Source: Acidobacteriota bacterium
Lineage (GTDB): Bacteria > Acidobacteriota > Terriglobia > Terriglobales > Acidobacteriaceae
Assembly (NCBI GenBank): GCA_028872955.1
Contig: JAGWNX010000003.1
Location: 1-64,000, forward strand
Direction of reading: 5' to 3'
Length of the DNA stretch: 64,000 nt
Part shown: piece by piece, positions 18,549 to 52,221 of the stretch
Layout of the letters: every line of letters starts with the position of its first letter
Position numbering within the stretch: the first letter of the stretch is position 1
Translations under genes and position numbers: made by a program
Notes under the pieces: model-generated
Seen by the model: the letters and a program-made list of their open reading frames with translations, nothing else
What the model was told of the DNA's origin: nothing
Databases searched by the model: none

Positions 18549-18647
18549 GTGGGCTCCCGGTAGGGGGTTGAGGTGCTGGCGGGCAGGATATCCTGCAGCA
18601 CCATGCTCCGGCTATGCTACCGGAGTTTCCTTCCCTGTTGACTGTTT

Positions 18648-18665
18648 AAAGCGGTTAAATAGATA
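18648..18665. promoter_or_regulatory. LacI-type operator candidate (copy A)
   Basis: GTTTAAAGCGGTTAAATA with AAGCGGTT (AANCGNTT) core, upstream of the GH3 gene at 18820; similar motif upstream of the second GH3. Confidence 0.4.
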
Positions 18666-18819
18666 CTCCTCTCGCGGGTCGATCTGTCGCTGCCGCGCTG
18701 CGGCATGGCAGACGCTCGTGGTGTGGCCACCGGAAGAAGATCCGGACGAGAACGAAGAACCTGCGGCTGCACGAACCGTGCGGCGGTGCAGCAGGAAAGC
18801 AGTACCGGAGAGAGAGCAG

Positions 18820-30320: not shown

Positions 30321-30511
30321 ACTGTGGGCGGCACTGCGAATTGACTTGAGTGAGCCGTTTGCGATGCCCAGGATGTTTTGCGGCGCGAAAGTTGACGCTC
30401 TGTCGATCACGAACGGCCGCTGGACGGAGCATGGTCGCTCCGCCAGGGGCCGGCAAAGCAGGATCGACGCAACAGTCAGGCCACGCTTGAATGATTTCTC
30501 TTGGAGGCAAC

Positions 30512-33844: not shown

Positions 33845-33848
33845 ACCT

Positions 33849-33892
33849 CGCTCCCGGCGGCACGATACAGTGGCTGCCGGGAGCGTCTCTTT
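33849..33892 (+). terminator. Stem-loop terminator after TonB receptor
   Basis: CGCTCCCGGC...GCCGGGAGCG followed by TCTCTTT. Confidence 0.75.
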
Positions 33893-33992
33893 GCGAGGTG
33901 GCAAAATGGCGAGGTGCGAGGCCGAGTGATGAAGATGTGAGATGCCGTTTGCTACGCTTCAACTACTGTTTTTTTTGATCACAGGAGTACGC

Positions 33993-35168
33993 ATGAAGAG
34001 ATTGAGCCTGGTCCGTTCCAATGCGCGCGCGGTGCTGCACGGTGTTGCCGCGGTAGTTGCAGCCTGCATGGTGCTTGCATGGCAAGCCTCCGCACAGGAG
34101 CAGCACATCAAGCCGGCACCGCCGGGAGACTCGCTGGATGTGCCGGGTCCGCTGGCGCGTGATCTTTCGCCAAAGCTTGACCGCAGGCATCTTGCCCGCG
34201 CGATAACGCTGGTTGCAGACTGGCAGCTTGCGCGGCTGCCTGCGGAGACCCAGTATGACTGGACCTTTGCCGCGCTCTACGCCGGATACATGGCCGTGCC
34301 TGATGGGGCAGGCGGTGCGAGGTACAGGAAGGCGATGTATGACGTTGGCGAAGCGTTGCACTGGTCGCCGGGCCCGCGTGTGGAACATGCGGACGATCTG
34401 GCAGTTGGCCAGATGTACCTGGAGCAGTATGCCCTGCAACATGACCGCAAAATGCTCGACCCGATACGCGCGCGACTGGATGCCGAGATTGCAGCGGGGG
34501 ATGGCCGGGACAGGCCGCTGTGGTGGTGGTGCGACGCGTTATTTATGGCGCCGCCGGTGTTTGCGGATGTAGCCCGCGCAACAGGCGATGCCAGGTATCT
34601 CGACTTCATGGACCGGCAGTGGGAGATCTCCAGCAAGCTTCTCTACGACCACACGAAGCATTTGTATGCCCGCGACGCCTCCTTTCTGGACAAGCGCGAG
34701 AAGAACGGAGAAAAGATCTTCTGGTCGCGCGGCAATGGCTGGGTGATGGGCGGTATTGTGCGCGTGTTGCAGGCGCTGCCTGCGGATTCGCCACTGCGGC
34801 CCAAGTACGTCGCACTGCTGCAGGCAATGGCGGCGGAGGTGATCGAGGTGCAAGGCAAGGACGGCTTGTGGCGGCCGGGGCTGCTGGATCCTGCGGGCTA
34901 TCCGTTGCCTGAGATCTCAGGCAGTGCCTTTATCACGTATGCGCTTGCTTACGGCGTCAACGAGAAGATTCTGGATCGCAAGACCTACTGGCCCGTGGTG
35001 GAGCACGCCTGGGCAGGGATGCTGACGCACGTCTATGCCGATGGCCGTCTGGGTTGTATTCAGCCCGTTGGTGCCGCGCCCGGCGCGTTCAGCGAGACCT
35101 CAAGCTACGTGTATGGGGTGGGTGCCTACCTGATGGCCGGTGCGGAGATCTACCGGACGGCGAAGTAG
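33993..35168 (+). CDS. GH105/GH88-family unsaturated glucuronyl/rhamnogalacturonyl hydrolase, secreted
   Basis: DWTFAALYAGYMAV, HADDLAVGQMYLEQYAL, LWWWCDALFMAPPVFA, WSRGNGWVMGGIVRVLQALP, GSAFITYALAYGVN. Confidence 0.92.
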   Translation: MKRLSLVRSNARAVLHGVAAVVAACMVLAWQASAQEQHIKPAPPGDSLDVPGPLARDLSPKLDRRHLARAITLVADWQLARLPAETQYDWTFAALYAGYMAVPDGAGGARYRKAMYDVGEALHWSPGPRVEHADDLAVGQMYLEQYALQHDRKMLDPIRARLDAEIAAGDGRDRPLWWWCDALFMAPPVFADVARATGDARYLDFMDRQWEISSKLLYDHTKHLYARDASFLDKREKNGEKIFWSRGNGWVMGGIVRVLQALPADSPLRPKYVALLQAMAAEVIEVQGKDGLWRPGLLDPAGYPLPEISGSAFITYALAYGVNEKILDRKTYWPVVEHAWAGMLTHVYADGRLGCIQPVGAAPGAFSETSSYVYGVGAYLMAGAEIYRTAK

Positions 35169-35210
35169 CAACAGACATCTGGAACGCTGGGGAGGGCAGG
35201 GCACGTGCCG

Positions 35211-37349
35211 ATGAGCAGCAAGTGGAATCGACGGCAGTTTGGGAAGCGTGTGTTGACGGGCGCTGTGCTAACGCTTGCTGCCGGACGCGACGCAACCGCA
35301 GGCATTGCCTGCACCGCAGAGAACTGCCGTCCGTTGCCGTGGACGGCAGTAGCCCCGGGCATTTGGAAGGCAACACTGGGTACGCCCGAGGCGATTACGC
35401 CTGTCACGTCACGTCTGAAGCCTGTGGCGGCGGACGCGTTGCAGCGTATGCCGCAGGTCGCCGCGCCTCCGCTGCCTGGGCCGCTGGGCGCGGTAACGCA
35501 GCGTGGGTCTGTGCTCACGCTCGCACTCGCAGCGGAAGAACAGCTCTACGGCTTCGGCCTGCAATTTCAGGGCATGGCGCATCGCGGCCGCAAACGTACG
35601 CTGCGTGTGAACGCCGACCCGGGAAACGACAGCGGCGACTCGCACGCGCCCGTGCCGTTCTATGTAAGCAACCGCGGCTATGGCGTGTTTGTAGACACCG
35701 CACGGTACGCAACGTTCTACTGTGGCGACGCCAGGCCGAAGCCGGTGCAGCCAACACATCAGGACGCAGGCGGGGTCGTGCCGTTGTATGTCGGCGCACT
35801 GGGTGATGCTGACAGCTCGCGTGTTGTGGTGGAGGTGCCGCGCGCCAGCGGCGTGGAGGTCTACCTGTTTGCAGGTCCCGCCATGGTGCAGGCCGTACAG
35901 CGGTACAACCTCTTCTCTGGTGGTGGCGTGCGGCCACCAGAGTGGGGTCTGGGCTTCTGGTATCGCGCCGCCAGCAACGCGCATGACCACGAGATCGCCG
36001 CGCTGGCAGAGGAGTTTCGTGAGCGCCGGATACCGTGCGACGTGATCGGACTGGAGGCGGGATGGCATACGCACGCGTACTCCTGCACGTATGCGTGGCA
36101 CAAAGAGCGGTTTCCGCAGCCAGGAACATTTCTGCGCGGGCTGGCGGCACAGAACTATCACGTGAATCTTTGGGAGCATGCGTTCGTGCATCCATCGTCA
36201 CCGTTGTTTGCGCCGATGCAGCCTCACTCGGGAGATGCCGGGGTGTGGGGTGGGCTGGTGCCGGACTTTGAGAGTGCCGCCGCTCGCGGTGTCTTTGGCG
36301 ACTATCATGGCAAGGCGCTCATCGACGAGGGGGTGTCGGGCTTCAAGCTGGATGAGTGCGACAACTCCGACTTCACAGGCGGGTGGTCGTTCCCGGAACT
36401 GACGCAGTTCGGCTCGGGGGTGGATGGCGAGCAGATGCATAGCCTGTTTGGTCTGCGTTATCAGGCTGCGTTGCTGCAGCAGTTTGAGCAGCGCGGACAG
36501 GCGACCTACTCGCTGGTGCGATCCAGCGGAGCGCTGGCCGCGCCGTACCCGTTTGTGCTGTACAGCGATTTGTACGATCATCGCCAGTTTGTGCGGGCAC
36601 TCGTGAACGCCAGCTTCAGCGGGCTGTTGTGGTGCCCGGAGGTGCGCGATGCCCGGAGCGAAGAGGACCTGATTCGTCGCTTGCAGACGGTTGTGTTTGC
36701 ACCACTCGCCATGGTCAACGGCTGGTACATTCCAAATCCGCCCTGGAAGCAGCTGAACCGGCAGAAGAACAATGCCAATAAGCTTGCGCCGGGCTGGGAG
36801 TCGCTGGAGGAGCGATGCCGCGAGATTCTTGGCTGGCGCATGCAATTGATTCCGTATCTTCAGGCGGCATTCGCACGCTATGCAGAGGACGGCACGCCGC
36901 CCTTCCGCGCTGTGCCGCTGGATTGGCCCGATGTACCAGCCCTGGCGAAGGTGGATGACGCCTGGATGGTTGGAGACCGCATGCTGGTGGCGCCTCTGTT
37001 TGCAGGGGAGCCGGCGGGGCGAAGCCTGACCTTGCCGCCGGGCACCTGGCACGATCTGTGGACCGGCGTTGCGCATGCAGGCGGTACGACGCTTGACCTT
37101 CCTGCAGAGACGCGCAACATCCCGGTCTTCGTCAAGTCGGACTGCGTGCTGCCGCTGGCGGCGACGACCAACAGCACGGCCGATGCGGCGCGCAGGGCGC
37201 TGACAGTTCGCGTCTTTGGCAGCGGCAGCCTTCCGTTTGTGCTGCACACAAGCACCGGTGCGCTTACCCTACGGTGGAATGCGGCGCAGCAGCGAGGTTC
37301 TGTAGAGCAGCGTGGGGATGCGGAGTATCACGTAGTTGCGTGGCAGTGA
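35211..37349 (+). CDS. GH31 family alpha-glycosidase (alpha-xylosidase/alpha-glucosidase), Tat-like signal
   Basis: RRQFGKRVLTGAVLTLAAG; LYGFGLQFQGMAHRGRKRTLRVN; PPEWGLGFWYRAASNAHDHEI; GFKLDECDNSDFTGGWSFPE; YSLVRSSGALAAPYPFVLYSDLYD. Confidence 0.85.
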   Translation: MSSKWNRRQFGKRVLTGAVLTLAAGRDATAGIACTAENCRPLPWTAVAPGIWKATLGTPEAITPVTSRLKPVAADALQRMPQVAAPPLPGPLGAVTQRGSVLTLALAAEEQLYGFGLQFQGMAHRGRKRTLRVNADPGNDSGDSHAPVPFYVSNRGYGVFVDTARYATFYCGDARPKPVQPTHQDAGGVVPLYVGALGDADSSRVVVEVPRASGVEVYLFAGPAMVQAVQRYNLFSGGGVRPPEWGLGFWYRAASNAHDHEIAALAEEFRERRIPCDVIGLEAGWHTHAYSCTYAWHKERFPQPGTFLRGLAAQNYHVNLWEHAFVHPSSPLFAPMQPHSGDAGVWGGLVPDFESAAARGVFGDYHGKALIDEGVSGFKLDECDNSDFTGGWSFPELTQFGSGVDGEQMHSLFGLRYQAALLQQFEQRGQATYSLVRSSGALAAPYPFVLYSDLYDHRQFVRALVNASFSGLLWCPEVRDARSEEDLIRRLQTVVFAPLAMVNGWYIPNPPWKQLNRQKNNANKLAPGWESLEERCREILGWRMQLIPYLQAAFARYAEDGTPPFRAVPLDWPDVPALAKVDDAWMVGDRMLVAPLFAGEPAGRSLTLPPGTWHDLWTGVAHAGGTTLDLPAETRNIPVFVKSDCVLPLAATTNSTADAARRALTVRVFGSGSLPFVLHTSTGALTLRWNAAQQRGSVEQRGDAEYHVVAWQ

Positions 37350-37418
37350 GGCGGCTGTAAGCCACACGGAGTGCGGGCGACGGAACCATGTATGATGGAC
37401 GGCGAGTTTTTGCCGGTG

Positions 37419-37436
37419 TTTGAAGCGGTTTACTAA
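37419..37436. promoter_or_regulatory. LacI-type operator candidate (copy B)
   Basis: GTTTGAAGCGGTTTACTA, 15/18 identical to copy A; AAGCGGTT core, immediately upstream of the second GH3. Confidence 0.4.
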
Positions 37437-37464
37437 AGACCAGCCAGACACCAAGGAGCCATGG

Positions 37465-39690
37465 ATGCCGACTCGTCTTGCTACGATGCTTGTCTTTACT
37501 GCGACCGCTCTTGGAGCGGCGTTTGCCCAGTCTGCTGTTCCGGCCGATGCACCGTATAAGAACCCCAGCCTGCCGGTGGAGCAGCGGGTGAGCGATGTGC
37601 TGAGCCGCATGACGCTGGAGGAGAAAGCGAGCATGCTGGCTGGCTCTGGCTGGATGGAGTCGACGCCGGTGGAGCGGTTGGGGATTCCTGCCATCAAGAT
37701 GGCGGATGGGCCGATGGGTGTGCGCGCGTGGTACGGCAGCTCGGCCATTACCAGCGCGGCAGGCTACAGGACGCCAGTGCTTGCAACCAGCTTTCCCTCC
37801 GGCGTGCTGATGGCGGCCACATGGGATACCGATCTGGTGCGTGACGAAGGGCAGGCCATCGGGCAGGAGGTCAAAGCGCTGGGGCGGGATATGATCCTGG
37901 GGCCGACGGTGAACATCAACCGTGTGCCGCTGTGGGGACGCAACTTTGAGGGCTACGGCGAAGACCCCTACCTCTCTGGCCAGATGGGAGTGGCGTATAT
38001 CCAGGGCGTCCAGGGCGAGGGCGTGATCCCTTCGGTGAAGCACTTTATTGCCAACAACCAGGAGTTTGAGCGCCATCGCATCGACGAGTCCATCTCAGCC
38101 CGTGCGCTGCATGAGATCTATCTGCCGGCCTTCAAAGCCGCTGTGCAGCAGGCCGATGTGTGGAATGTCATGTCTGCCTACAACAAGGTGAACGGTGTGC
38201 AGTGCGCGGAGAATGCGCCGGTGCTGCAGGACCTGCTGCGCAAGGAGCTGGGCTTCAAGGGCTTTGTCATCTCCGACTGGGCAAGCACCTACTCCACAGC
38301 CGGGACGGTGAATGCGGGTATTGATCTGGAGATGCCGGGGGGTGCGCCGATGCAGCAGTGGCTGGCGCGGCCGAACTCGTTTGCCGCAGGCAATAGCGGC
38401 GGCTGGCTGACGGAGCCCAAGGTGATGGCCGAGGTGCACGCGGGCCACATTACAGAGGCGCAGGTGAACGAGAACGCCGCAGCGATTCTGCGCATCATCT
38501 TCAAGAGCGGCCTCTTCGACCACCCGCACGTTGTCACGGGTGTGGTGGATACGCCGGCGCAGCGAGCGGTAGCGCGCCGCGCGGTGACCGAGGGCATTGT
38601 GCTGCTGAAGAACGAGGGCTCGTTGCTGCCGATCGATGAGACGAAGGTGCATTCGATCGCCGTCATTGGACCAAACGCTGCGCGTGCGCGCACGGGTGGT
38701 GGCGGCAGTTCGCTGGTCCGCCCACGCTTTGCTGCGGCGCCGCTCGACGGGATCCGCGAGCGCGGTTACATGCTGAAGGTGCAGTACGCGCAAGGTGTGG
38801 GGATGGAAGGCGAAGACCCCGCACAGGACACACCGGAGGTGCGCGCGAAGCTGCTGCAGGAGGCGGTGGACGTGGCCTCGCATGCGGATGTGGCCGTGGT
38901 CGTGGTTGGACGCTATCCGAAGCTGGAAGGCGAGGGCTTCGACGTAAAGACGATGGATCTGCCCGCAGGCCAGGACGAGCTGATCGAAGCAGTGGAGAAG
39001 GCGAATCCGCACACGGTGGTGGTGTTGAACACCGGCGACGCGGTAACCATGTCGCGCTGGCTGGACCAGACGCCCGCGCTGCTGCAGCTTTGGTACGGCG
39101 GCGAAGAGGCTGGCCACGGACTGGCGGATGTGCTGTTTGGCGACGCGAATCCCTCGGGCAAGCTGCCGGTCTCGTTCCCCAAGCGCTTTGAGGACTCACC
39201 CGCGTACGGACACTACCCCGGCGAGAACCTGAAGGTCGACTACGCCGAGGGCATCTATGTCGGCTATCGCTACTTTGAGACGCGCAACGTCAAGCCGCAG
39301 TTTCCGTTTGGCTATGGCTTGAGCTACACCACGTTTGCCTACAGTGATCTGGCTGTGACGCCAGGCAAAACTACGGCGAATGCACCGGTCGAAGTGAGTG
39401 TGAAGGTGAAGAACACCGGCCAGCGCGACGGAGCCGAGGTAGTGCAGCTGTATGTGCACGATGGCCACGCCAAGATCGACCGCCCGGTGCGCGAGCTGAA
39501 GGGGTTTGCACGCGTAGCGCTGAAGGCCGGCGAGGAGCGCACGGTGCACTTCAAGCTGGACCGTGCAGCGCTCTCCTACTGGAATCCAGAGACCAAGGAC
39601 TGGCAGGCAGATCCCGGCGTGTTTGAGGTGCAGATCGGTGCGAGTGCTGAGGACATCCGGTTGACGGCTCCGTTGGAGCTGCGCAACTAG
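37465..39690 (+). CDS. GH3 beta-glucosidase-family glycoside hydrolase, secreted
   Basis: ORF 37420..39690; preferred ATG at 37465 (MPTRLATMLVFTATALGAAFAQ). GIPAIKMADGPMGVR, NFEGYGEDPYLSGQMG, KHFIANNQEFERHRID, GFVISDWASTYST; Fn3-like C-terminus. Confidence 0.93.
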   Translation: MPTRLATMLVFTATALGAAFAQSAVPADAPYKNPSLPVEQRVSDVLSRMTLEEKASMLAGSGWMESTPVERLGIPAIKMADGPMGVRAWYGSSAITSAAGYRTPVLATSFPSGVLMAATWDTDLVRDEGQAIGQEVKALGRDMILGPTVNINRVPLWGRNFEGYGEDPYLSGQMGVAYIQGVQGEGVIPSVKHFIANNQEFERHRIDESISARALHEIYLPAFKAAVQQADVWNVMSAYNKVNGVQCAENAPVLQDLLRKELGFKGFVISDWASTYSTAGTVNAGIDLEMPGGAPMQQWLARPNSFAAGNSGGWLTEPKVMAEVHAGHITEAQVNENAAAILRIIFKSGLFDHPHVVTGVVDTPAQRAVARRAVTEGIVLLKNEGSLLPIDETKVHSIAVIGPNAARARTGGGGSSLVRPRFAAAPLDGIRERGYMLKVQYAQGVGMEGEDPAQDTPEVRAKLLQEAVDVASHADVAVVVVGRYPKLEGEGFDVKTMDLPAGQDELIEAVEKANPHTVVVLNTGDAVTMSRWLDQTPALLQLWYGGEEAGHGLADVLFGDANPSGKLPVSFPKRFEDSPAYGHYPGENLKVDYAEGIYVGYRYFETRNVKPQFPFGYGLSYTTFAYSDLAVTPGKTTANAPVEVSVKVKNTGQRDGAEVVQLYVHDGHAKIDRPVRELKGFARVALKAGEERTVHFKLDRAALSYWNPETKDWQADPGVFEVQIGASAEDIRLTAPLELRN

Positions 39691-40160: not shown

Positions 40161-41135
40161 CTAATCTTCCGTTGGCGGAGTGCCGTAGGTGTGGAAGGTG
40201 GAGACGGTCGCCAGCCCCCAGGCCTGCCCGCGCTGCCGCTCCTCGCGGCTCCACACGACGGGCTGCCAGTCGGGGTCGAGGATGAGGTAGCCGCCGGAGC
40301 CGATCTCGATGCGGTTGCCGCCGGGCTCGTAAAAGTAAAGGAAGAAGGTCTGGCCGATGGAGTGCTTGTGCGGGCCAGTTTCAATGGCGATGCCGCGCTC
40401 GGTCAGGATGTCTGCAGCGCGCAACACGTCTTCGCGGCTGTCCATCATGTAGGTCAAGTGGTGGAAGCGGCCGTGCGCGCTGCTGTGGTCGCGGGTGAAG
40501 GCGATGTCGTACGACTTGTTGGTGGCCGCCAGCCACGCGCCCATCTCGTTGTTGCCATCGAAGACGATCTGCTCGGTGACGCGCAGGCCAAGCAGATCCC
40601 GGAAGAAGAGGCGGCAGGCGCGAATGTCCTGGGCCAGCAGATTCAGGTGGTCCAGCCGCTTGGGCGCGATGCCGCTGGGGATGTAGCGCTGCGGCATGTT
40701 CTTGTAGCCGGGGGCAAGTTCGCCTGTGCCGTGGAAGCGCTCCGTCTCGTAGTAAAGCTCGATGGCATGGCGGTCGGGGCTGAAGAATCGGAAGGCTGGT
40801 CCGTGCCCCAGCTCTGCCGGTCGCCACTCGCCGGCCACCTGATGGGCATGAAGGTTTGCCACCATCTGTTGCAGGACGCTGGCGCTGCGCACGCGAAAGG
40901 CTACGTGCCCCAGGCCGGAGGTGTGTGAGCGGGTGAGCTGCAGCGTGAAGCGCTCGTAGTCTGCCCAGGCACGCAGGTAGACCGAGTCTCCGCTCCGGCC
41001 TGACGCGTGCAGGCCGATCACGTTCAGGAAGAAGGTGAGGCTCTCCTCGAAGTGCGGCGTCAGCAGCTCAATGTGGCCAAGGTGGGCGACATCGCCAAAG
41101 CCGGGTTGCCGGTTGCTGGTTGCGTCAGGGCTCAT
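40161..41135 (-). CDS. Two-domain VOC/type I extradiol dioxygenase (catechol 2,3-dioxygenase-like)
   Basis: Two VOC repeats; putative metal ligands in RLDHLNLL, RFHHLTYMMD and GGNRIEIGSGGY. Confidence 0.9.
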   Translation of the reverse strand: MSPDATSNRQPGFGDVAHLGHIELLTPHFEESLTFFLNVIGLHASGRSGDSVYLRAWADYERFTLQLTRSHTSGLGHVAFRVRSASVLQQMVANLHAHQVAGEWRPAELGHGPAFRFFSPDRHAIELYYETERFHGTGELAPGYKNMPQRYIPSGIAPKRLDHLNLLAQDIRACRLFFRDLLGLRVTEQIVFDGNNEMGAWLAATNKSYDIAFTRDHSSAHGRFHHLTYMMDSREDVLRAADILTERGIAIETGPHKHSIGQTFFLYFYEPGGNRIEIGSGGYLILDPDWQPVVWSREERQRGQAWGLATVSTFHTYGTPPTED

Positions 41136-41851
41136 CAGGGTTCGACCTCGTCGAGGGTGTCGTAGTAGCGAAGGCCCAGGGCCGCAAGCGTTGGGCGCAT
41201 CTCCTCAATATCCATGCCAAGCTCGCCTGCTGCCAGGCGGGCGCGTTTCCCTTCTTCGCGGGCTAGTCGCCGACGTACGGCCTGCAGGCACGGCTCTACA
41301 CTTCGGTGCGGCACAATCGCCACGCCGTCGTCATCGGCGACAACCACATCCCCGCCGCACACCAGCGCTCCGGCGCACACCACGGGCGTATTGACCATGC
41401 CGAGTGTTGCCTTGATGGTGCCCTTGGCGGAGATGCAGCGCGACCATGCCGGGAACTGCATCGCGGTCAGCTCGGCGACATCGCGCACGCCAGCATCAAT
41501 CACCAGGCCTGCGACGCCGCGTGAGCGCAGCGAGGTGGCCAGCAGCTCACCGAACATGCCGTCGTGATTCTCTGCCGAGACGGCGACCACCAGCACGTCA
41601 CCGGGCTGGCACAGCTCCACCGCAACGTGGATCATCCAGTTGTCGCCAGGATGCGCCAGCACGGTGATAGCGTTGCCGGCAACGCGCGCGCCACGATAGA
41701 CGGGGCGCAGGTAGGGCTGCATCAGCCCGGTGCGGCCCATGGCCTCGTGCACGGTGGCCACGCCAGCGGCAGCCAGCTCCTGCAGCTGCTCCGGCGTGGC
41801 GCGTGGAATGGTGCGGACGACAGTTCCCATCTTGTACGCAGAGGCGTTCAT
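41135..41851 (-). CDS. 4-carboxy-4-hydroxy-2-oxoadipate aldolase/oxaloacetate decarboxylase-like (GalC/LigK, RraA fold)
   Basis: GVATVHEAMGRTGLMQPYLRPVYRGARVAGNAITVLAHPGDNWMIHVAVELCQPGDVLVVA; FGELLATSLRSRGVAGLVIDAGVRDVAEL. Confidence 0.9.
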   Translation of the reverse strand: MNASAYKMGTVVRTIPRATPEQLQELAAAGVATVHEAMGRTGLMQPYLRPVYRGARVAGNAITVLAHPGDNWMIHVAVELCQPGDVLVVAVSAENHDGMFGELLATSLRSRGVAGLVIDAGVRDVAELTAMQFPAWSRCISAKGTIKATLGMVNTPVVCAGALVCGGDVVVADDDGVAIVPHRSVEPCLQAVRRRLAREEGKRARLAAGELGMDIEEMRPTLAALGLRYYDTLDEVEP

Positions 41852-42576
41852 CGCAGCTCCTCCGTTACCAGCGGAAAGACGCGCTGGTACGCCTCGCCAT
41901 ATTTCATCGCGCGGTCAGAGTTGCGCGCGCCCTGCTGGCCACGTTGCAGTGCGACGCGGGTGTAGTACTCCCACAGGTGCTCTTGCGCGTCCATGCTTTC
42001 AAAGGCTCTGCGCTTGGTCTCCCACACCTCGGTAATGTCAAGGATAAGTTGCGGCTTCCAGTTGCACTGCTCCGGCTGGTGCGGCTCAAACAGGAAGACC
42101 GGCGGTGCGCCAATCGCAGCTGCGGCCCCGCGTCGGCCGTGGGCTTGCGCCACGACGCGCGCCTCCTGCGCAAAGCGTGTCGCCTCAGGGTGATCGAAGT
42201 TGTAGGGGTCCTCCTGCGAGTGGGTCAGCACCCACTCCGGTCGCAGCGTCTGGTACAGGTCGGCGAGTCGCTCAAGCGACTCCACCGTGGTGCGCATGGG
42301 GTAGTCACCCAGATCAAAGAAGACCATGTTGTGCACGCCGAGGATGGCACCGGCGCGCTCCGCCTCGGCGCGGCGAAGCTGCTTCACACGCTCCAGCGTC
42401 ATCGTTGGGTCCTTCCACAGCTTCTGACTCTCGCCCTTCTCGCCGTAGGTAAGGCAGACGACGGTGACCTGCCACCCGCGCTTGGCGTACAAGGCTACGG
42501 CACCGCCCGCACGCCAGATGAAGTCTGCCGAGTGTGCTCCCACCACCAGTCCGGTTCTGGGTTGATGCGCTTCCAT
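41848..42576 (-). CDS. PIG-L-family 4-oxalomesaconate hydratase-like protein (GalB)
   Basis: VVGAHSADFIWRAGGAVALYAKRGWQVTVVCLTYGEKGES; DYPMRTTVESLERLADLYQTLRPEWVLTHSQEDPYNFDHPEA; overlaps the downstream galC-like start. Confidence 0.85.
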   Translation of the reverse strand: MEAHQPRTGLVVGAHSADFIWRAGGAVALYAKRGWQVTVVCLTYGEKGESQKLWKDPTMTLERVKQLRRAEAERAGAILGVHNMVFFDLGDYPMRTTVESLERLADLYQTLRPEWVLTHSQEDPYNFDHPEATRFAQEARVVAQAHGRRGAAAAIGAPPVFLFEPHQPEQCNWKPQLILDITEVWETKRRAFESMDAQEHLWEYYTRVALQRGQQGARNSDRAMKYGEAYQRVFPLVTEELR

Positions 42577-42592
42577 GTTGATCGTCTCTCCT

Positions 42593-43465
42593 TTAAATGT
42601 GTGTGGGGTAGTGGCCCGATTGGGGGAAGCCGTACAGATGTGCGGGGTTGGCGACCAGCACCTGCCGCAGCCTCGCGGCATCGCCGTCGGCAGCCTCCAG
42701 CAACAACTCGGCCAGGGCCAGGTCTTCAGGACGCTGCTGCTGGTTGACGTGTGGCCAGTCCAGCCCCCACACGCAGTGCGCTGCGGCGGTGCCCAGCAGT
42801 GTGCGCAGTGGCTGCAGCGCGGCGCGCAGGCCGCTCTGGCTGCGGCTGCTGATCCGGTCTGCGCCGCTCAGCTTGGTCCATCGGTGGGGCGTCTCCAGGC
42901 ACCGTAGGAGTCTCTCCACCTGTGCGTGTACGGCATGCGATGCGTCGAGCCGTGCCATGTGATCCACCACCACATCCATTCCTCCGGGCACGTCCAGGCG
43001 ATCCAGCAGGTCGATCTCTAGCAGGTCAAGGTGCAACTCGGCATGCCAGCCCAGCGGCTGCACGCGGCGCAACAGTGCAGCGGCATCTGCCAGGCGCTGC
43101 GCCTCGTCGCGCGAATCTTTCCGGAGCAGGTGCGGAACCCAGTTGAAGCGGACAGCCCGCACACCCGCCCGATGCAGCGTGAGCAGTTCCTCCTCCGCAA
43201 CCCCTGCCTCCAGCACGGCGACACCACGTCGTGTCTGCGGCGACTGCGCCAGGGCTGCCAAGAGCGCACGGTGATCGCTGCCGTGGGCGCTGCCCTGCAC
43301 CAGCACGGCCCGGTCGATGCCCAGTTGCGTCCACACGGCCTGGAGCGCGGCTAGGGGTGCCTCGGGCGGATCATAGGTGCGATTGACCGCCAGCGGGAAG
43401 CGATCATACGGGCCAAATACGTGACTATGGCAGTCACAAACACCAAACTCCGGCAGCAGACGCAT
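42593..43465 (-). CDS. Amidohydrolase, 2-pyrone-4,6-dicarboxylate lactonase (LigI)-like
   Basis: CDCHSHVFGPYDRFPLAVNRTYDPPEAPLAALQAVWTQLGIDRAVLVQGSAHGSDH; VVVDHMAR; CVWGLDWPHVN. Confidence 0.82.
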   Translation of the reverse strand: MRLLPEFGVCDCHSHVFGPYDRFPLAVNRTYDPPEAPLAALQAVWTQLGIDRAVLVQGSAHGSDHRALLAALAQSPQTRRGVAVLEAGVAEEELLTLHRAGVRAVRFNWVPHLLRKDSRDEAQRLADAAALLRRVQPLGWHAELHLDLLEIDLLDRLDVPGGMDVVVDHMARLDASHAVHAQVERLLRCLETPHRWTKLSGADRISSRSQSGLRAALQPLRTLLGTAAAHCVWGLDWPHVNQQQRPEDLALAELLLEAADGDAARLRQVLVANPAHLYGFPQSGHYPTHI

Positions 43466-44559
43466 CAGCAGGCTCCCGGCAGAGTTGCGCTGCTACGCGG
43501 ATACGCGATGCCATCGAACAGGGCGCGTGCGGTGCGCACCAGGCCGCTGCGCTCCACGGTGGGGTCCTCCCTGGTGCCGCCCATCTCCAGCCGCACCTGG
43601 AAGAACCCGGCAGGGTGCTCCACCTCCATCAGTTTGATCGGGCCCTCGGGTGGGCTTGCCAGCGCATACGCCACGGTGCCGGGCAGCACACATGCGGTCG
43701 CCACACTGACCGCGCCGAAGACGCCGATGGAGGCGTGGCACTTGCGCGGAATCAGCGTTCGCGTGGCGATGCAGCCGCCCTGTGCCGGTGGTGCCAGTAG
43801 CGACATCTTCGGCACCACGGCATCGGCCACCTCGCCCAGGTTCATGCGGCGACCGGCCTGCAGGCGGATCGACTCGATGCGCCGCAGCGCTTCGGCAGAT
43901 GCCTCAATCTCGGCGCAGCTCTCGCGCCCGGTCAGGCCAAAGTCCTGCGCACGCAGCAGCACCACCGGCATGCCGTTGTCGATGCAGGTGACGGAGACGC
44001 CATCGATCGCATCGGTTCTGGCGCCGGAGGGGAAGAGCGAGCCGCAGACCGAGCCAGCCGTCTCCAGAAAGTTGATGGGGATGGCTGCCGCCGTGCCGGG
44101 CACGCCGTCGATGGCCGTGTCGCCCTCGTAGCAGACCACGCCCTGCGGCGTCTGCACCACCAGCTCAGCCACGGTGCCGGTGTTCAGGGTGCGCACGCGG
44201 ATGCGCGTCTGCGGATGGTGGGCAGCCAGCAGGCCGCGCTCCAGGGCAAACGGGCCGACCCCGGCCAGGATGTTGCCGCAGTTTGGCGTGGTATCCACCA
44301 GCGGCTCCGTTACGTTGACCTGCGCGAACAGAAAGTCGAGATCGATTCCAGGCGACTGCGAGCGGCTGACGATGGCTGCTTTGCTGGTCAGCGGGTGCGC
44401 TCCGCCGATGCCATCAATCTGGCGCGCATCGGGCGAGCCCAGGATGCGCAACAACAGGTCGTCGCGCTCGGCAGCGCCAGCGGGCAGCTCGTCGGCCAGA
44501 AAGTAGGCGCCTTTGGAGGTGCCGCCACGCATCAGCATGCAGCGAACGCCGGGTCGCAT
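43465..44559 (-). CDS. 4-oxalomesaconate tautomerase-like (GalD, PrpF family)
   Basis: RCMLMRGGTSKGAYFLADELP; GIGGAHPLTSKAAIVSRS; TPNCGNILAGVGPFALERGLL; KCHASIGVFGAVSVATACVLPGTVA. Confidence 0.88.
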   Translation of the reverse strand: MRPGVRCMLMRGGTSKGAYFLADELPAGAAERDDLLLRILGSPDARQIDGIGGAHPLTSKAAIVSRSQSPGIDLDFLFAQVNVTEPLVDTTPNCGNILAGVGPFALERGLLAAHHPQTRIRVRTLNTGTVAELVVQTPQGVVCYEGDTAIDGVPGTAAAIPINFLETAGSVCGSLFPSGARTDAIDGVSVTCIDNGMPVVLLRAQDFGLTGRESCAEIEASAEALRRIESIRLQAGRRMNLGEVADAVVPKMSLLAPPAQGGCIATRTLIPRKCHASIGVFGAVSVATACVLPGTVAYALASPPEGPIKLMEVEHPAGFFQVRLEMGGTREDPTVERSGLVRTARALFDGIAYPRSSATLPGAC

Positions 44560-44603
44560 CAGGGGGGTGCTCCTTGCGGACCGGTGTCGTTTCGCCCGCC
44601 GCT

Positions 44604-44623
44604 GTTTACACAGATGTATAAAC
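44604..44623. promoter_or_regulatory. TetR-type operator candidate
   Basis: GTTTACAC-AGAT-GTATAAAC, 7/8 matched inverted repeat between galD-like start (44559) and tetR end (44668). Confidence 0.55.
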
Positions 44624-44667
44624 CGCGGGCGCAGCAAAGTCAATGTCAGCGTTGGCGCTGCCGGGGA

Positions 44668-45457: not shown

Positions 45458-46600
45458 CTAGCGGAAGCAGGCCGTGTAGATCGCCTCGGCCTCTGGCTGC
45501 GAGATGCTGCGCGGGTTGTTGCGCAGCAGTCGCGTTACGGTAAGGGCCGTGGCCGCCATGCGTGGGATTGCGGTGCGCGGCACGTCATGCGCGGCCAGGT
45601 CCATGACGATGCCACAGCGCTCTGCCAGTCGCTGCAGATGCTGCGCGCCAGCCAGCGCCGTCTGCAGGGCGTTGGCCGCAGCGGGCAGGCCCATGGCCAG
45701 GCTTACGGCAGCGTGTCGCTCTGGCGTTGCCTGGGCGTTGAAGGCGAAGACGGCGGGCAGCAGCAGAGCGTTGGAGAGCCCGTGTGCCATGTGGAACTCG
45801 CCGGCCAGCGGATACGCGAGGGCATGCACCGCTGCGGTGTTGACGGGGCCCAGGCACAGGCCACCGTACAGGCTGCCCAGCGCCACGCACTCGCGGGCCT
45901 CGGTGTGCTCCGGCTGCTGCACGGCGCGCAGCAGCGAGGTTGCGATGAGCCGGATGCCCGGCAACGCATAGACGTCAACCAGCGGGTGCGCGTGGCGGTT
46001 GGTGTACGCCTCAATGCAGTGGGTCAGCGCATCCAGGCCGGTGACCGCGGTGATGTTGGGTGGCACGGAGTGCGTCAGGATGGGATCGATAAACGCTGCA
46101 TCCGGCACCAGGTGCGGGCTGATGACGGCCTTCTTCAGGTGCACGGCTTCATCCATCAGCACAGCGTTGGGCGAGACCTCCGAGCCGGTGCCCGCCGTGG
46201 TGGGAATGCAGACGAGCGGCACGTCGCGCCGGGCAAGCAGTCCAATGCCCAGGATGTCCTGAATCTGCTGCTGGTTGCGAAGCAGCGCCGCCACCAGCTT
46301 GGCCGTATCCAGCGGGCTGCCGCCGCCCAGGCCGACGATGGCGTCGGGCGCAGCGGCCCGCGCATGGTCCAGCGCACGCGCCAGATCAGCCAGGGTCGGC
46401 TCGCCGTGCAGGCTTGCGTCTAGCGTGACGGCACTGGGGCTCAGGCTGGCTGCGAGGTTTGCCGCCAACTGCCGCTGCGAGGGTGAGGTGACGAGATGGA
46501 CGCGCGCATAGCCCTGCTGACGCAGCCAGCTGGTGGCCTCGGCGATGGCGCCCGAGCCGAAGACGAGATGCCGTGGCTGTTGCAGCGTGATGGGTCGCAT
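45458..46600 (-). CDS. Iron-containing alcohol dehydrogenase
   Basis: AIVGLGGGSPLDTAKLVAAL, IPTTAGTGSEVSPNAVL, GLDALTHCIEAYT, HALAYPLAGEFHMAHGLSNALLLP. Confidence 0.93.
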   Translation of the reverse strand: MRPITLQQPRHLVFGSGAIAEATSWLRQQGYARVHLVTSPSQRQLAANLAASLSPSAVTLDASLHGEPTLADLARALDHARAAAPDAIVGLGGGSPLDTAKLVAALLRNQQQIQDILGIGLLARRDVPLVCIPTTAGTGSEVSPNAVLMDEAVHLKKAVISPHLVPDAAFIDPILTHSVPPNITAVTGLDALTHCIEAYTNRHAHPLVDVYALPGIRLIATSLLRAVQQPEHTEARECVALGSLYGGLCLGPVNTAAVHALAYPLAGEFHMAHGLSNALLLPAVFAFNAQATPERHAAVSLAMGLPAAANALQTALAGAQHLQRLAERCGIVMDLAAHDVPRTAIPRMAATALTVTRLLRNNPRSISQPEAEAIYTACFR

Positions 46601-46602
46601 CG

Positions 46603-47397
46603 CTACTGTGCCCGATCTGCAGCCGTAGCCTGGATGGCTTGCTGCGCCGCGGCCAGCGCATGCTGCGCGCCGTGCTTCAGGCAGGAGATGTCGTTGGCGC
46701 AGAAGAGCAGATCCACGCCCATGCGGGTCCAGTGAGAGAAGTCACTGGGAGCGCAGGCGGTGACGATCTTCTTGTCAAAGCGCCGCGCCGTGCTGATGAT
46801 GCGCTCGGCTGCGCGCAGCACCGCAGGGTGACTCGTCTGGCCCGGGTAGCCGAGGCTGGCCGCAAGGTCTGCCGGGCCGATGAAGATGTCAATCTCGGGC
46901 ACGGCAGCAATCTGCTCAATGCGATCCAGCGCGGTGGAGGTCTCAATCTGCGCCAGCAGGCTCAGGTGCTGATTGACCCTCTGCTGCTCGGCCGGCAGGT
47001 CTTCGCCCAGGCCATACTTCACGGCTCGGGAGACGCCGAAGATGCCACGGCTGCCGACAGGGGCAAAGCGTGAGTAGCGCACCAGCTCGTCGAGCTGCTG
47101 GGGCGAGTCTGCCATGGGGATGTCGATAATGTCGGGCCCGCACTCGGCGGCCTTCAACACGCTCTCGCGGCGCGTGTCAGGGATGCGGATCATGGTCAAC
47201 ATCCCGGAGCCTGCTGCCATGCGGCACAGGTCGGCAGCCTGGGCAAACGAGATGGGCACGTGCTCCATCTCGATCCATACGGCATCAAAGCCCATGTGAC
47301 CGGCGATCTCCAGAAAGATGGGATCGTAAAAGTACAGCGCAGCGCCCAGCAGTGGTCTGCCGTTGTTCTTCTCAATTGCGCGACGTAAGCAGTTCAT
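46603..47397 (-). CDS. HpcH/HpaI-family aldolase
   Basis: GFDAVWIEMEHVPISFAQAADLCRMA; MIRIPDTRRESVLKAAECGPDIIDIPM; IETSTALDRIEQIAAVPEIDIFIGPADLAASLG. Confidence 0.92.
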   Translation of the reverse strand: MNCLRRAIEKNNGRPLLGAALYFYDPIFLEIAGHMGFDAVWIEMEHVPISFAQAADLCRMAAGSGMLTMIRIPDTRRESVLKAAECGPDIIDIPMADSPQQLDELVRYSRFAPVGSRGIFGVSRAVKYGLGEDLPAEQQRVNQHLSLLAQIETSTALDRIEQIAAVPEIDIFIGPADLAASLGYPGQTSHPAVLRAAERIISTARRFDKKIVTACAPSDFSHWTRMGVDLLFCANDISCLKHGAQHALAAAQQAIQATAADRAQ

Positions 47398-48965
47398 GCA
47401 GTCTCCTCAAGATCAGGGGTGGATGGTGTAGTAGCAGGGTGGGAGGCGGCCGCAGCACTGCGCCGCCAGCCCCAGTAGGTCAGCTCCGGGCTTACGGCCG
47501 CGGAGGAAGGAAACAGACGACTGACCAACATGCCGACCGGCAACAGCAACATATTGCCGACGACGCCGATCATGTACTCGTGCCAGGGAAAGTTGTAGCG
47601 GCCCAGGTTGAGCAGCTTGCCGTTGAGCGTGAGCGTGGCATACAGCGTGAACAGCAGCGCTACTGCGATGCCGGCCAGGGCACCGGCGCGGTTGGCACGC
47701 GGATCAAGAAACGCCAGCAGAAAGAGTCCTGCCAGGCCGCCAGCCACCACGGCTGTGGTGGTGTAGTACAGAGCAAGCGCGCCGCCGCTGCCGTGCGCAA
47801 AGCACAACGCCAGCGCCGCTGCCGCCAGACCGCTGAGGATCACGATCAGGCGTCCCAGCCGCAGCGCCTGGCGATCTGTCGCGCGCGGCCGCAGCAGCCG
47901 GTAGAAGTCCTCGACGCCAATCACAGCGAGGCAGTTCATGTCGGAGGCCAGCATGGCCATGGCGGCGCCCAGCAGCGCTGCCAGAAATAATCCGGAGAGG
48001 CCGGGCGGAATATGCGTCACCAGAAAGTGCGGAAAGACCTGATCTGCCTTGGTGATACTGGCTGGCAGCCGCTCCCCGGTCAGCCGATAGAAGCTCCACA
48101 GCAGGCTGCCGATCAGCATGAAGGCTGTCCACACCGGGATGCAGAGCGCCGCGCCAAGTGCAATGCCTCGCAGCGCACTGCGATCCGAGCGCGCTATCAG
48201 GAAGCGCTGCACCACGCTTTGGTCTGCCGTGTAGCGTTGCAGGTAGAAGAAGACTCCATACAGAAACAGAACAACCAGCGTGGGTTGATCCAGTCGCAGC
48301 GCCGTGCTGCCCAGGCTCATCTTGTGGTGACTCCAGGCATCGTGCAGAACGGCTGCGGGGCCCTGCCGGGGCAACAGCAGCAGAAAGACGATGGAGACGA
48401 GGATGCCTACCCACAGCACAAAGCCCTGCACGACGTCGCTCCACACCACGGCCTCTACTCCGCCCAGCATGGTGTAGAAAATAGTGACCAAAGCAGTAAC
48501 AAATACGATGCCAGGCAGCGGCCAGCCCGTCATGCTGGCCAGGGTGAGCGCCACCAGGTAGAAGACAAAGCCCATCTTGGCAAAGTGCCCCACCGCGAAG
48601 GCGAAGGAAGCGTAGAGGCGCACCGTCGCGCCGAATCGCCGGCCAAAGTACTCGTAGGCACTCATGTGCACCGCCTGCCGGTAAAACGGAACGATGACCA
48701 TCCCGATGAGCGCAAGCACGGCCACAAACATGAAGCCCGGCACCAGCAGAGACCAGTCTGACGCGTAGGCGGCACCGGGGTACGCGATGAAGGTGACGCT
48801 GGTGATGGTTGTAGCCAGCAGCGAGAGGCCCATGGCCCAGCCGGGAATGGCGCGCCCTGCAATGAAGTAGGACTCGGTCGTCTTTTGCCGGCGTGCGAAG
48901 CGCAGCCCCAGGTACAGCAGGCCGGCCAGGTAAAGCAGAACGACGATCAGGTCGAGGAGGCGCAT
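47394..48965 (-). CDS. Sodium:solute symporter (SSS family)
   Basis: ORF 47394..49151; ATG at 48965 (MRLLDLIVVLLYL). KTTESYFIAGRAIPGWAMGLSLLATTITSVTFIAYPGAAYASDW; PPGLSGLFLAALLGAAMAMLASDMNCLAVIGVEDFY. Confidence 0.9.
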   Translation of the reverse strand: MRLLDLIVVLLYLAGLLYLGLRFARRQKTTESYFIAGRAIPGWAMGLSLLATTITSVTFIAYPGAAYASDWSLLVPGFMFVAVLALIGMVIVPFYRQAVHMSAYEYFGRRFGATVRLYASFAFAVGHFAKMGFVFYLVALTLASMTGWPLPGIVFVTALVTIFYTMLGGVEAVVWSDVVQGFVLWVGILVSIVFLLLLPRQGPAAVLHDAWSHHKMSLGSTALRLDQPTLVVLFLYGVFFYLQRYTADQSVVQRFLIARSDRSALRGIALGAALCIPVWTAFMLIGSLLWSFYRLTGERLPASITKADQVFPHFLVTHIPPGLSGLFLAALLGAAMAMLASDMNCLAVIGVEDFYRLLRPRATDRQALRLGRLIVILSGLAAAALALCFAHGSGGALALYYTTTAVVAGGLAGLFLLAFLDPRANRAGALAGIAVALLFTLYATLTLNGKLLNLGRYNFPWHEYMIGVVGNMLLLPVGMLVSRLFPSSAAVSPELTYWGWRRSAAAASHPATTPSTPDLEETA

Positions 48966-48969
48966 CGTA

Positions 48970-51051
48970 TCAACCCGCCGCTTCTTCAGCTTGACGCAGC
49001 CGGGTTGTGGCCATGGTGATGGCCATGCGCATGGCGGCCTGCATGTTGGTGCCGCTGGCCAGGTTCTGCCCGGCGATGTCGAAGGCCGTGCCGTGGTCCA
49101 CCGAGGTGCGCAGAATGGGAATGCCCAGCGACGTGTTGACCGTGGCCTCAAAGTCCAGCAGCTTCATCGGAATATGGCCCTGGTCGTGGTACATCGCCAC
49201 CACCAGGTGATGCGAGCCCTGCACAGCGCGCAGGAAGATGGTATCTGCCGCGAACGGGCCCTCGCACAGGATGCCCTGCTGGCGGCAGTGGGCGATGGCA
49301 GGCACAATGTGCTGCTCCTCTTCGTTGCCAAACAGCCCGTGTTCGCCGGCGTGGGGATTCAGGCCGCAGACGGCGATGCGTGGCTGCGCGTGGCCTAGCA
49401 ACTGCATGGCGGCGTGACCCAGCTCAATGGTGCGGATGATGCGTTGCGTCTCCAGGCTGCAGGCGCGGCGCAGGCTTACATGGGTCGAGACGTGAATGAC
49501 GCTGAGCCGCGTCCCATGCAGCAGCATGCGCGAGTCGGTCGCGCCACACAGCGCGGCAATGTACTCCGTATGCCCGGTGAAGGCCATACCGCTGCGCACC
49601 ACGGCCTCTTTGTTCAGCGGAGCTGTCACCATGGCATCGGCCTCGCCGTGCAGGCACAGGTGGGTGGCATGGAAGACGTACTGCGCCGCTGCGCGACCGT
49701 ACTCCGGCCGCAGCTCTCCCCAGGCAATCGGCTCGTCGGACGCGAGCATGTGCTGGTCACACAGCGTCAGCTGCATGGCATCCAGGCTCAGTCCGGTGGC
49801 GCTCTCCGCAGCGCGCAGGGCTGCCCCATCGCCGACCAGCACCCACTCTGCCGAGCGGCGCAGCGCGGGGTCCGCAAGAGCCTTGAGCGTAACCTCCGCG
49901 CCGATGCCTGCGGGGTCGCCCAGCGTGACAGCGATGCGCGGCAGTCGAGCGCCTGCTGCAGCCAGGGCGGGTGCGGGTGCGTAGCGGTTGGCAATCGAAC
50001 GCAGCAGTCCGGCCTCACCAAAGCCGCCGGACTTCAGAAGCAGTGGCAGACCCGCCAGCTCCTCAGCCTCGGCGCTGGCGATGGGCACCCCAGGGCAGAA
50101 CTCCCGCTGCAGGGTGAGCTGGCGAACCGCGAACGCCCGGCACAGCAGTGCGGCCGTGGCTCCACCGGTGACGACGAGGCAAGCGGCACCGGCCTGCAGC
50201 TCCGGCAGAATCCGCTGGCGCAGTTGCTCGGGCGAGGTCGTCTCGGGGTTAAGCGTGTGGATGCTGCTTGCCTCGCCGGGCGCAGCTGTCTGCTGCAGGT
50301 GCTGAAGCTGCGCCGTGGTGACGGCGTGGTCGCTGCCGAGGACAAAGATCGTCTTGCCGCGCACGCCGCGCTGCACGGCGGGCATGGCCGTCGCTCCGCC
50401 CGTTGGCAGGGTCTCGGCCAGCGCATGTGCCAGCCCTGCCGCGCCTATCCACAGGATGGGCCGCCGCAGCGAGAGAGCAGCGTCTGCCAGTGCGCGCAGC
50501 TGCTGGTTGGTCTGCGCATCGCACACCAGCACTGGCACCTGCGGTGCCACGCGCAGCATGGTGGCCAGCGATGCTGCGGAGGTGTCGGCAGGAATGCCTG
50601 CACAGTCCAGTCCATGCCGTGCCAGCTGCTGCGCCAGCGGCGCTTGCTTGGCCACGGCCTGGCCATGCAGGTGCAGCCGACCACCCACGCAGGTGCGCCC
50701 CTGCGCTGGTAGCGCCGGTGCCAGGATGGCCAGGTGGCCCGGCAGGCAACGCACTGCGGCAGCGATCTCGGCAAAGGTGTTGCCTCGCAGCACGGAGTCG
50801 ATCTTCTTGAACAGGAGTGCGCCAGCCGTGGCTGCAGCTGCGCTCATCGCTGTCGTGACCCTCTGCTGCGCTTCCGCCTCGGGCAGCGTCCGCGACTCTG
50901 TGGAGAGGGCCGTGGCGTCGGCGTCGTCGCCCGACCAGGGTGAGTCGGTGTGCAACGGAACTGTGGTCCGATACCCGCGCGCGGCAAAGGCGACGGCGGC
51001 GTCGCAGGCTCCGGTCAGGTCATCGGCCAGGATGTGAATGCGGGTCAGCAA
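48970..51051 (-). CDS. Fused four-carbon acid-sugar kinase (DUF1537/OtnK-DtnK type) and PdxA-family 4-phospho-acid dehydrogenase
   Basis: N-half: ILADDLTGACDAAVAFAARGYRTTVPL, FKKIDSVLRGNTFAEI, APALPAQGRTCVGGRLHLHG, LKSGGFGEAGLL. C-half: RIAVTLGDPAGIGAEVTLKAL, APLNKEAV, GHTEYIA, MYHDQGHIPMKLLDFEATVNTSLGIPILRTSVDHGTAFDIAGQNLA. Uninterrupted 693-aa frame. Confidence 0.9.
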   Translation of the reverse strand: MLTRIHILADDLTGACDAAVAFAARGYRTTVPLHTDSPWSGDDADATALSTESRTLPEAEAQQRVTTAMSAAAATAGALLFKKIDSVLRGNTFAEIAAAVRCLPGHLAILAPALPAQGRTCVGGRLHLHGQAVAKQAPLAQQLARHGLDCAGIPADTSAASLATMLRVAPQVPVLVCDAQTNQQLRALADAALSLRRPILWIGAAGLAHALAETLPTGGATAMPAVQRGVRGKTIFVLGSDHAVTTAQLQHLQQTAAPGEASSIHTLNPETTSPEQLRQRILPELQAGAACLVVTGGATAALLCRAFAVRQLTLQREFCPGVPIASAEAEELAGLPLLLKSGGFGEAGLLRSIANRYAPAPALAAAGARLPRIAVTLGDPAGIGAEVTLKALADPALRRSAEWVLVGDGAALRAAESATGLSLDAMQLTLCDQHMLASDEPIAWGELRPEYGRAAAQYVFHATHLCLHGEADAMVTAPLNKEAVVRSGMAFTGHTEYIAALCGATDSRMLLHGTRLSVIHVSTHVSLRRACSLETQRIIRTIELGHAAMQLLGHAQPRIAVCGLNPHAGEHGLFGNEEEQHIVPAIAHCRQQGILCEGPFAADTIFLRAVQGSHHLVVAMYHDQGHIPMKLLDFEATVNTSLGIPILRTSVDHGTAFDIAGQNLASGTNMQAAMRMAITMATTRLRQAEEAAG

Positions 51052-51381
51052 AGGTGGCTCCGAGGTGGTGCGGTTGGCCTGGCCGCTTCATGCTGCCTGC
51101 GACGAGTCCGGTAATCTGGCAAAAGAAGTATAAAAGTGAAAATAAAAATTGTCTCTAGAAATCACAAGCGCACGGCACATGCCAGTGTAGCGCCGTGTTG
51201 CTGCAGAACGGCCATAATTGGACCTACCAATGCGATGCAAGCAGCTGAAAATTCTGTGCCCGAGGTGCAGGCTCGGCGGCTGACCGTCTTCCCTGCAAGA
51301 TCCTGTGGCGGTAATTTACACCTGGCTTGTATTATTTCCAGGACGCGACACAACGGTGGTGGAACGGAGAAGAGAAGCCGG

Positions 51382-52221
51382 ATGAGCAAGGAGCGCAAGA
51401 CAGTAGCGACGGCGAAGGCGGCTTCCAAGCCGCGCAAGCGACGTCCGAAGCAGTATGATCCGGCGGAGAAGGGAACCGACCAGTACTTTTTGCGGGCCAT
51501 CGCCCGTGCCCTGGATGTATTGGACTGCTTCAGCGACGCCAGCTCTGCACTGACGCTCAAAGAGATCAGCTACCGGACGGAGATGCCGGAGTCGACCCTG
51601 TTTCGCATTCTGTTGACGCTGGAGGCGAAGGGCTGCCTGACGCAGCGCGACGACGGTGCCTACCAGTTGACGCCCAAGATTCTGCTGGGCAAGCTGCGCG
51701 AGCAGGCAGACCACTTCCGCCGCAAGGCGCGACCGTATCTGCTCTCGCTGGCGCAGCGGTTTGACGAGACGGCCAGCCTGGCCTTTCTGTTTGAGAGCCG
51801 CATTCACGTCATGGACTCGATTGAGAGCTTCCAGGAGATACGGCACGCCAACCGCATTGGCCGGGTGCTGCCGCCGCACTGCAGTTCGCTGGGCAAGGCG
51901 ATTACGGCCTACCAGCCCGAGGAGCAGATGAACGAGATCCTGGAGGTGTATGGTCTGTTTCGCCGGACGGAGAAGACCATCACGGATCGTCGCCTGCTGC
52001 ATGAGGAGTTTGAGCGTATCCGCGAGCAGGGGTATGCGGTGGATCGTGGCGAGGCGGTTACCGGTGGCGTGTGCATCGGCGTACCGGTGGCAACGCCCGA
52101 GGGCCACGTGGTGGGTGCAGTCAGCCTGTCCACACCCGACGGTCGTATGACGCCCGAGCGCGAGCAGCAGATTATTGCGGCCGTGCGGCAGACCGCGCAG
52201 GCGATTGCCGCCGCACTGTAA
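51382..52221 (+). CDS. IclR family transcriptional regulator
   Basis: RAIARALDVLDCFSDASSALTLKEISYRTEMPESTLFRILLTLEAKGCLTQRDDGAYQL; GVCIGVPVATPEGHVVGAVSLSTPDGRM. Confidence 0.95.
   Translation: MSKERKTVATAKAASKPRKRRPKQYDPAEKGTDQYFLRAIARALDVLDCFSDASSALTLKEISYRTEMPESTLFRILLTLEAKGCLTQRDDGAYQLTPKILLGKLREQADHFRRKARPYLLSLAQRFDETASLAFLFESRIHVMDSIESFQEIRHANRIGRVLPPHCSSLGKAITAYQPEEQMNEILEVYGLFRRTEKTITDRRLLHEEFERIREQGYAVDRGEAVTGGVCIGVPVATPEGHVVGAVSLSTPDGRMTPEREQQIIAAVRQTAQAIAAAL

Follow-up and report, generated by a model that had tools for sequence, protein, structure and literature searches.

A fused DUF1537 kinase-PdxA gene of Acidobacteriaceae in an operon that most likely belongs to an undescribed pathway for the RG-II acid Dha

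The window, a stretch of 64,000 nucleotides from an Acidobacteriaceae genome (contig JAGWNX010000003.1), contains an operon in which a fused DUF1537 kinase-PdxA gene is followed by genes for a symporter, an aldolase and an Fe-ADH. This operon is most likely part of an undescribed Dha pathway, whose reactions and substrate are read from context; the reading is based on domain content, operon structure, family identities and the genomic association with enzymes for the pectin rhamnogalacturonan-II (RG-II). On a wider scale, there is probably a widespread route for Dha in which a retro-aldol step is followed by reduction to D-threonate and then by phosphorylation and oxidative decarboxylation, with DHAP as the product. 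This route would have been assembled separately with non-homologous aldolases (HpcH in Acidobacteriaceae, DapA in Bacteroidota, Firmicutes and Proteobacteria) and would provide a natural source of D-threonate. The features of the locus are as follows.

45458 to 46600, minus strand: Fe-ADH, proposed semialdehyde reductase (Pfam Fe-ADH and ADH_Fe_C; metal-ligand segments present)
46603 to 47397, minus strand: HpcH/HpaI-family class II pyruvate aldolase (Pfam HpcH_HpaI; its start overlaps the SSS stop, ATGA)
47394 to 48965, minus strand: SSS-family sodium:solute symporter (Pfam SSF, TIGR00813; ATG 4 nt after the fusion stop)
48970 to 51051, minus strand: fused DUF1537 kinase-PdxA gene (693 aa, single uninterrupted ORF)
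48970 to 49941, minus strand: PdxA2-type dehydrogenase half, residues 371-693 plus stop (Pfam PdxA, TIGR00557)
49942 to 49980, minus strand: linker, residues 358-370 (pLDDT below 50 at 362-366; no usable start codon)
49981 to 51051, minus strand: DUF1537 kinase half (SBD_N and NBD_C), residues 1-357 (Pfam, motifs, structures)
51382 to 52221, plus strand: divergent IclR-family regulator (Pfam IclR_C, HTH_IclR)

The genes for the fusion, the SSS symporter, the HpcH aldolase and the Fe-ADH are contiguous or overlapping on the minus strand and form one operon, which supports the compact acid-sugar operon proposed in an earlier sequence-only reading of this DNA; the families that this reading had assigned to the neighbours (SSS, HpcH/HpaI, Fe-ADH and IclR) were all confirmed by Pfam. 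The open frame of the IclR gene begins at 51136, with the likely ATG at 51382. The aldolase scores 104.6 bits against a Pfam gathering score of 25, its expected active-site segments were located and 2-keto-3-deoxy sugar acid aldolases are among its best PDB matches, while its scores against the NCBIfam equivalogs for HpaI, GarL and 2-keto-3-deoxy-L-rhamnonate aldolase (about 97-107 bits) lie below their cut-offs of at least 368. The same gene set recurs in many Acidobacteriaceae, and the Fe-ADH is missing from the cluster in the otherwise complete loci L183, L184, L186, L188 and L189. In Caballeronia, Bacillus safensis, Oceanobacillus, a Lactobacillus MAG, Gilliamella, Rahnella, Pectobacterium, Bacteroidota and others, a DapA-family protein fills the aldolase slot; the DapA-type version of the module extends over Bacteroidota, Firmicutes and Proteobacteria. 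The module frequently includes a sialidase-family gene. Since two non-homologous aldolase families occupy the same slot, pyruvate aldol cleavage appears to be the constant step.

The kinase half is a short DUF1537 acid-sugar kinase whose nearest solved structures are the DUF1537 proteins 4xfr/4xg0 and 4xfm/4xgj. The motifs ADDLTG, KKIDSxxRG, P..GR, GG.TA and KSGGFG were located, and they are conserved across 106 kinases except for GG[D/E]T, the acidic residue of which is aspartate or glutamate in 96 of the 106 and alanine in the window (Ala298, GGAT). Eight other kinases of this set also carry alanine at that position and one carries serine; these variants belong to Bacteroidota, Ignavibacteriota or a Lactobacillus MAG, and all come from the same kind of locus. 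Against the NCBIfam model for D-threonate kinase (NF047819) the fusion scores 145.5 bits, over residues 4-254 only, which is below the cut-off of 450. The Pectobacterium kinase found in a locus of this kind is the orthologue of ECA3761 (PDB 4xfm/4xgj), whose structure reportedly contains bound D-threonate. A second, separate DUF1537 kinase is encoded elsewhere in the window's genome (G000:C85:6464-7174).

The RG-II context, which lay beyond the view of the sequence-only reading, is the informative part. In a Bacteroidales MAG (L112), genes for GH28, GH95 and an apiosidase come after the module, in Sphingobacterium (L127) it lies among genes for GH78, GH2, GH28 and a BNR_2 protein, and in a Prevotellaceae locus (L158) it is adjoined by a BT1020-type protein (PF24067; 1131 bits to PDB 5mqr). 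In many Acidobacteriaceae genomes, genes for GH142-like and sialidase-fold proteins stand directly after the aldolase or the Fe-ADH; the GH142-like protein matches the C-terminal part of 5mqr with an E value of 5.5e-103. Furthermore, four genomes of the genus have an apiosidase-like gene about 0.6-20 kb from their kinase-PdxA pair. BT1020 (GH142/GH143) reportedly strips L-arabinofuranose from Dha, and Dha from RG-II, and GH142 is a family of the Dha chain and not of the Kdo chain.

This association is also seen in gene content. Among 62 genomes of the genus the aldolase is present in seven, the GH142 orthologue in seven and both in six (P 8e-7, ignoring shared ancestry), and a count over 398 genomes of the family gives 35 for either gene and 25 for both (P 9e-24, again ignoring shared ancestry). 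Ten of the aldolase-bearing genomes of the family lack a GH142 orthologue. In these 398 genomes 13 aldolase-GH142 pairs lie within 5 kb of each other, all on the same strand and often less than 0.3 kb apart. Kinase and PdxA genes are also present in eight of 16 further loci that were picked by their aldolase, or in eight of 13 when those from genomes with GH142 are counted. Thus the RG-II enzymes are physically linked to the module in relatives and in other phyla; in the window's own genome they lie on separate contigs, as a homologous RG-II-like locus is found on contig C114, which encodes GH29, a GH142-like protein, two sialidase-family proteins, GH28, a GH78-like protein, GH95 and an apiosidase-like protein.

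The sialidase-family protein was also considered as a homologue of the BT1020 propeller, which was rejected as by sequence it matches GH33-like sialidases and not 5mqr. For the sialidase-fold protein the predicted structure is of only fair quality (pLDDT 73.5), and its putative role is suggested by fold and position only. On C114, a protein (L171 4352-6574) joins a sulfatase-modifying-factor-like domain to a sialidase-fold domain and is found next to GH142-like genes across the family at about 60-70% identity. Three further proteins of 901, 642 and 498 aa (L172 3987-6689, L171 7505-9430 and L171 14315-15808) have no Pfam match; homologues of them turn up again when relatives carry RG-II-like loci, and they are candidate RG-II enzymes.

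Vascular plants carry RG-II in their primary walls, and the steps of its extracellular breakdown are already mapped. Dha is a rare sugar acid, a C7 2-keto-3-deoxy diacid. Its only known place in plants is RG-II, and it is related to sialic acid (PMC12168206), while chain D of RG-II consists of Araf-beta1,5-Dha (PMC12282258). In the proposed pathway, the GH142-like arabinofuranosidase and the neighbouring sialidase-fold hydrolase encoded on C114 would free Dha from RG-II, whereupon the SSS symporter would import it. The HpcH aldolase would then split Dha into pyruvate and the C4 semialdehyde D-threuronate, which the Fe-ADH would reduce to D-threonate. The kinase half would convert D-threonate to 4-phospho-D-threonate, and the PdxA half would oxidise C3 and decarboxylate the product to yield DHAP and CO2, with the fusion representing an optional joining of the kinase and PdxA steps. 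Fischer bookkeeping shows that cleavage of Dha followed by reduction of the aldehyde end gives D-threonate. Keto-deoxy acids with C6, C8 or C9 would not yield a C4 acid. Of the four D-series C7 acids, however, two would lead to D-threonate, which makes the stereochemical fit only moderately specific.

The operon might alternatively be a plain one for D-threonate or another C4 acid, with the SSS protein importing D-threonate, the fusion converting it to DHAP, and the aldolase and Fe-ADH serving an unrelated 2-keto-3-deoxy acid from pectin. Minimal permease-kinase-PdxA clusters do exist, as in Burkholderia, and there are relatives that carry the pair but no aldolase or ADH; the kinase-PdxA pair is found without HpcH or GH142 orthologues in G061, G308 and G313. 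These sets indicate that the pair also works outside the proposed pathway. Nevertheless, we consider this explanation of the operon rather unlikely, since the symporter, aldolase and Fe-ADH genes form a single transcription unit with the fusion, overlapping or adjoining it, the same genes recur together across the family, two non-homologous aldolases take the same slot and the tie to a GH142-type enzyme points to side chain D.

It is also conceivable, if quite improbable, that the module serves another acid of RG-II or pectin, such as Kdo from side chain C, and that the kinase-PdxA pair forms a side branch. A single aldolase could act on both Kdo and Dha, and two loci with kinase-PdxA pairs (L159 2559-5475 and L065 565-5584) have genes for an FGGY kinase and a fucose-isomerase-like protein nearby, which would fit the use of D-arabinose from Kdo, the other keto-deoxy acid of RG-II. 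However, cleavage of Kdo gives a C5 aldose, which does not feed into a C4-acid kinase or PdxA2, and GH142, as known from BT1020, is assigned to the Dha chain.

The PdxA half carries the active-site segments TAPLNKE, GHTE, NPHAGE and YHDQGH, including the histidines, and its best PDB matches are 4jqp, 2hi1 and 6e85. Its score against the model for D-threonate 4-phosphate dehydrogenase (NF002891) is 265 bits, below the cut-off of 583. A vitamin B6 role of the fusion, in PLP synthesis, was weighed, in which the kinase would yield 4-phosphohydroxythreonine for the PdxA half. DUF1537 proteins can make 4-hydroxythreonine phosphate (PMC7954711), and a fusion of this kind was first read as a clue to B6 (PMC4921024). 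The window's genome, however, contains PdxS and only one PdxA-like match, and a search of it for PdxJ found none, which argues that B6 is made by another route and that the PdxA half is catabolic. In addition, most genomes of the genus lack a PdxA match and the operon includes a transporter and an aldolase, and the B6 role, being very improbable, was rejected.

The fusion itself was clear from several lines of evidence. The sequence-only reading, which named no strand, had described a single uninterrupted frame with a kinase half and then a full PdxA half, on which the ORF, Pfam, TIGR00557 and AlphaFold2 agree. The gene starts with TTG, 6 nt downstream of a GGAG Shine-Dalgarno sequence. The domain search that this reading had called for returned SBD_N at residues 6-211 (125.6 bits), NBD_C at 281-348 (41.4 bits) and PdxA at 403-677 (313.6 bits), all above their Pfam gathering scores, and TIGR00557 (pdxA) matches residues 372-681 with 331 bits, above the curated cut-off of 290.35, so that both domains lie in one frame above curated scores and the protein is a DUF1537-PdxA fusion. 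The AlphaFold2 model comprises two confident folds (mean pLDDT 91.3), with low confidence at residues 362-366 of the flexible linker, and its Foldseek matches are PdxA proteins and DUF1537 kinases. This dip falls within about 49942-49980, in agreement with the linker that had been placed near 49930-49985. A scan of codons 331-400 of the fusion found no in-frame ATG, GTG or TTG, and hence the PdxA half cannot be started separately. Although close relatives have two overlapping genes here, the idea that an assembly or sequencing error merged two adjacent genes is hardly credible and was rejected, since a stop and a start would both have had to disappear, the linker offers no start codon, and G333, G429, G179, Caballeronia and Actinomycetota have fusions as well.

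The fusion is not new but of a known, recurrent kind. True fusions were found in the window, in G333 of the same genus (54% identity over the full length, no stop), in G429 and G179, on a Caballeronia plasmid, in two Streptomyces and in Klenkia. Several apparent further fusions (G333 C7:597924-600221, G328, G503, G565, G558, G312 and G282) proved to consist of separate genes that are divided by a stop or lie in different frames. Relatives in the genus with 57-69% identity in the PdxA half have adjacent kinase and PdxA genes, often overlapping by a few bases, and two adjacent genes are the state kept by most relatives. In a tree built from 115 PdxA domains, seven changes are required to explain the fused state, at least five of which are forced by well-supported branches, and the fusions of the window and of G333 do not group. 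The fusion is thus sporadic and not essential, an optional joining of two neighbouring genes. This speaks against the earlier suggestion that the fusion may channel an unstable 4-phospho-3-keto acid. The keto acid arises and decarboxylates within the PdxA active site, so a fusion cannot be needed to channel it, and the compound passed between the halves is the stable 4-phospho-D-threonate; moreover, the fused state comes and goes on the tree and close relatives use two overlapping genes. Keto-acid channelling was therefore rejected on mechanism and on the seven changes of state.

Other loci of the window concern sugars and aromatic compounds. An aromatic ring-cleavage cluster (40161-44643, minus strand) encodes a catechol 2,3-dioxygenase-type enzyme above the TIGR03211 cut-off, a 4-carboxy-4-hydroxy-2-oxoadipate aldolase, a PIG-L protein, an amidohydrolase and a 4-oxalomesaconate tautomerase, which together correspond to a gallate/protocatechuate 4,5-type lower pathway with a dioxygenase from other than the usual family. 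A carbohydrate locus (30491-39687, plus strand) contains a TonB-type outer membrane receptor, GH88, GH31 and GH3, and a GH67 alpha-glucuronidase and a GH3 protein with a PA14 domain are encoded on opposite strands at 15957-21459.

A search of openly licensed papers found no account of bacterial Dha use after release, a gap that the Dha reading, if true, would close. It would also account for the finding that bacteria from soil and gut, and plant-associated ones, have D-threonate enzymes next to pectin enzymes, would reveal a likely origin of D-threonate in nature and would set right labels like "PdxA vitamin B6 enzyme", "DapA" and "sialidase" that many genomes carry.

One of the closest known systems is the D-threonate pathway of DtnK and PdxA2, a kinase-dehydrogenase pair whose substrate is D-threonate, as Zhang and colleagues are said to have reported in 2016; PMC7954711 and PMC9997740 cite that work. 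The window shares its two domain families and presumably the same two reactions to DHAP and CO2, but in the window they are fused, the kinase is short, and an aldolase and an Fe-ADH are added, which suggests that D-threonate would be formed along the way and would not itself be what is imported. The earlier linkage of DUF1537 kinases and PdxA2 to both D-threonate and erythronate catabolism holds for D-threonate, whereas the D-erythronate and L-threonate routes rely on OtnK/OtnC-type enzymes (PMC12540250). With regard to RG-II, a homologue of the BT1020-type enzyme (5mqr/5mqs) adjoins the module in Prevotellaceae, and in Acidobacteriaceae the GH142-like part of this enzyme is encoded by a gene of its own next to the module; the BT1020-type enzyme would represent the extracellular release step and the module the intracellular pathway. 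As for the fusion, Table 4 of a 2016 gene-fusion survey lists DUF1537 fused to a PLP-pathway gene under the entry DUF1537 / PLP / kinase (PMC4921024, citing Thiaville et al. 2016), which resembles the window in joining a DUF1537 kinase to such a gene, the partner being PdxA on our reading of the table. In that table the fusions are cast as a clue to B6, whereas the fusion of the window lies in a catabolic operon of a genome with PdxS and without PdxJ. Likewise, the Arabidopsis LTD protein unites a DUF1537-type kinase domain with further enzymes of a C4-acid pathway in a fusion, but it serves the L-threonate route and combines LtnD with an FbP-aldolase-like OtnC, without PdxA (PMC12540250).
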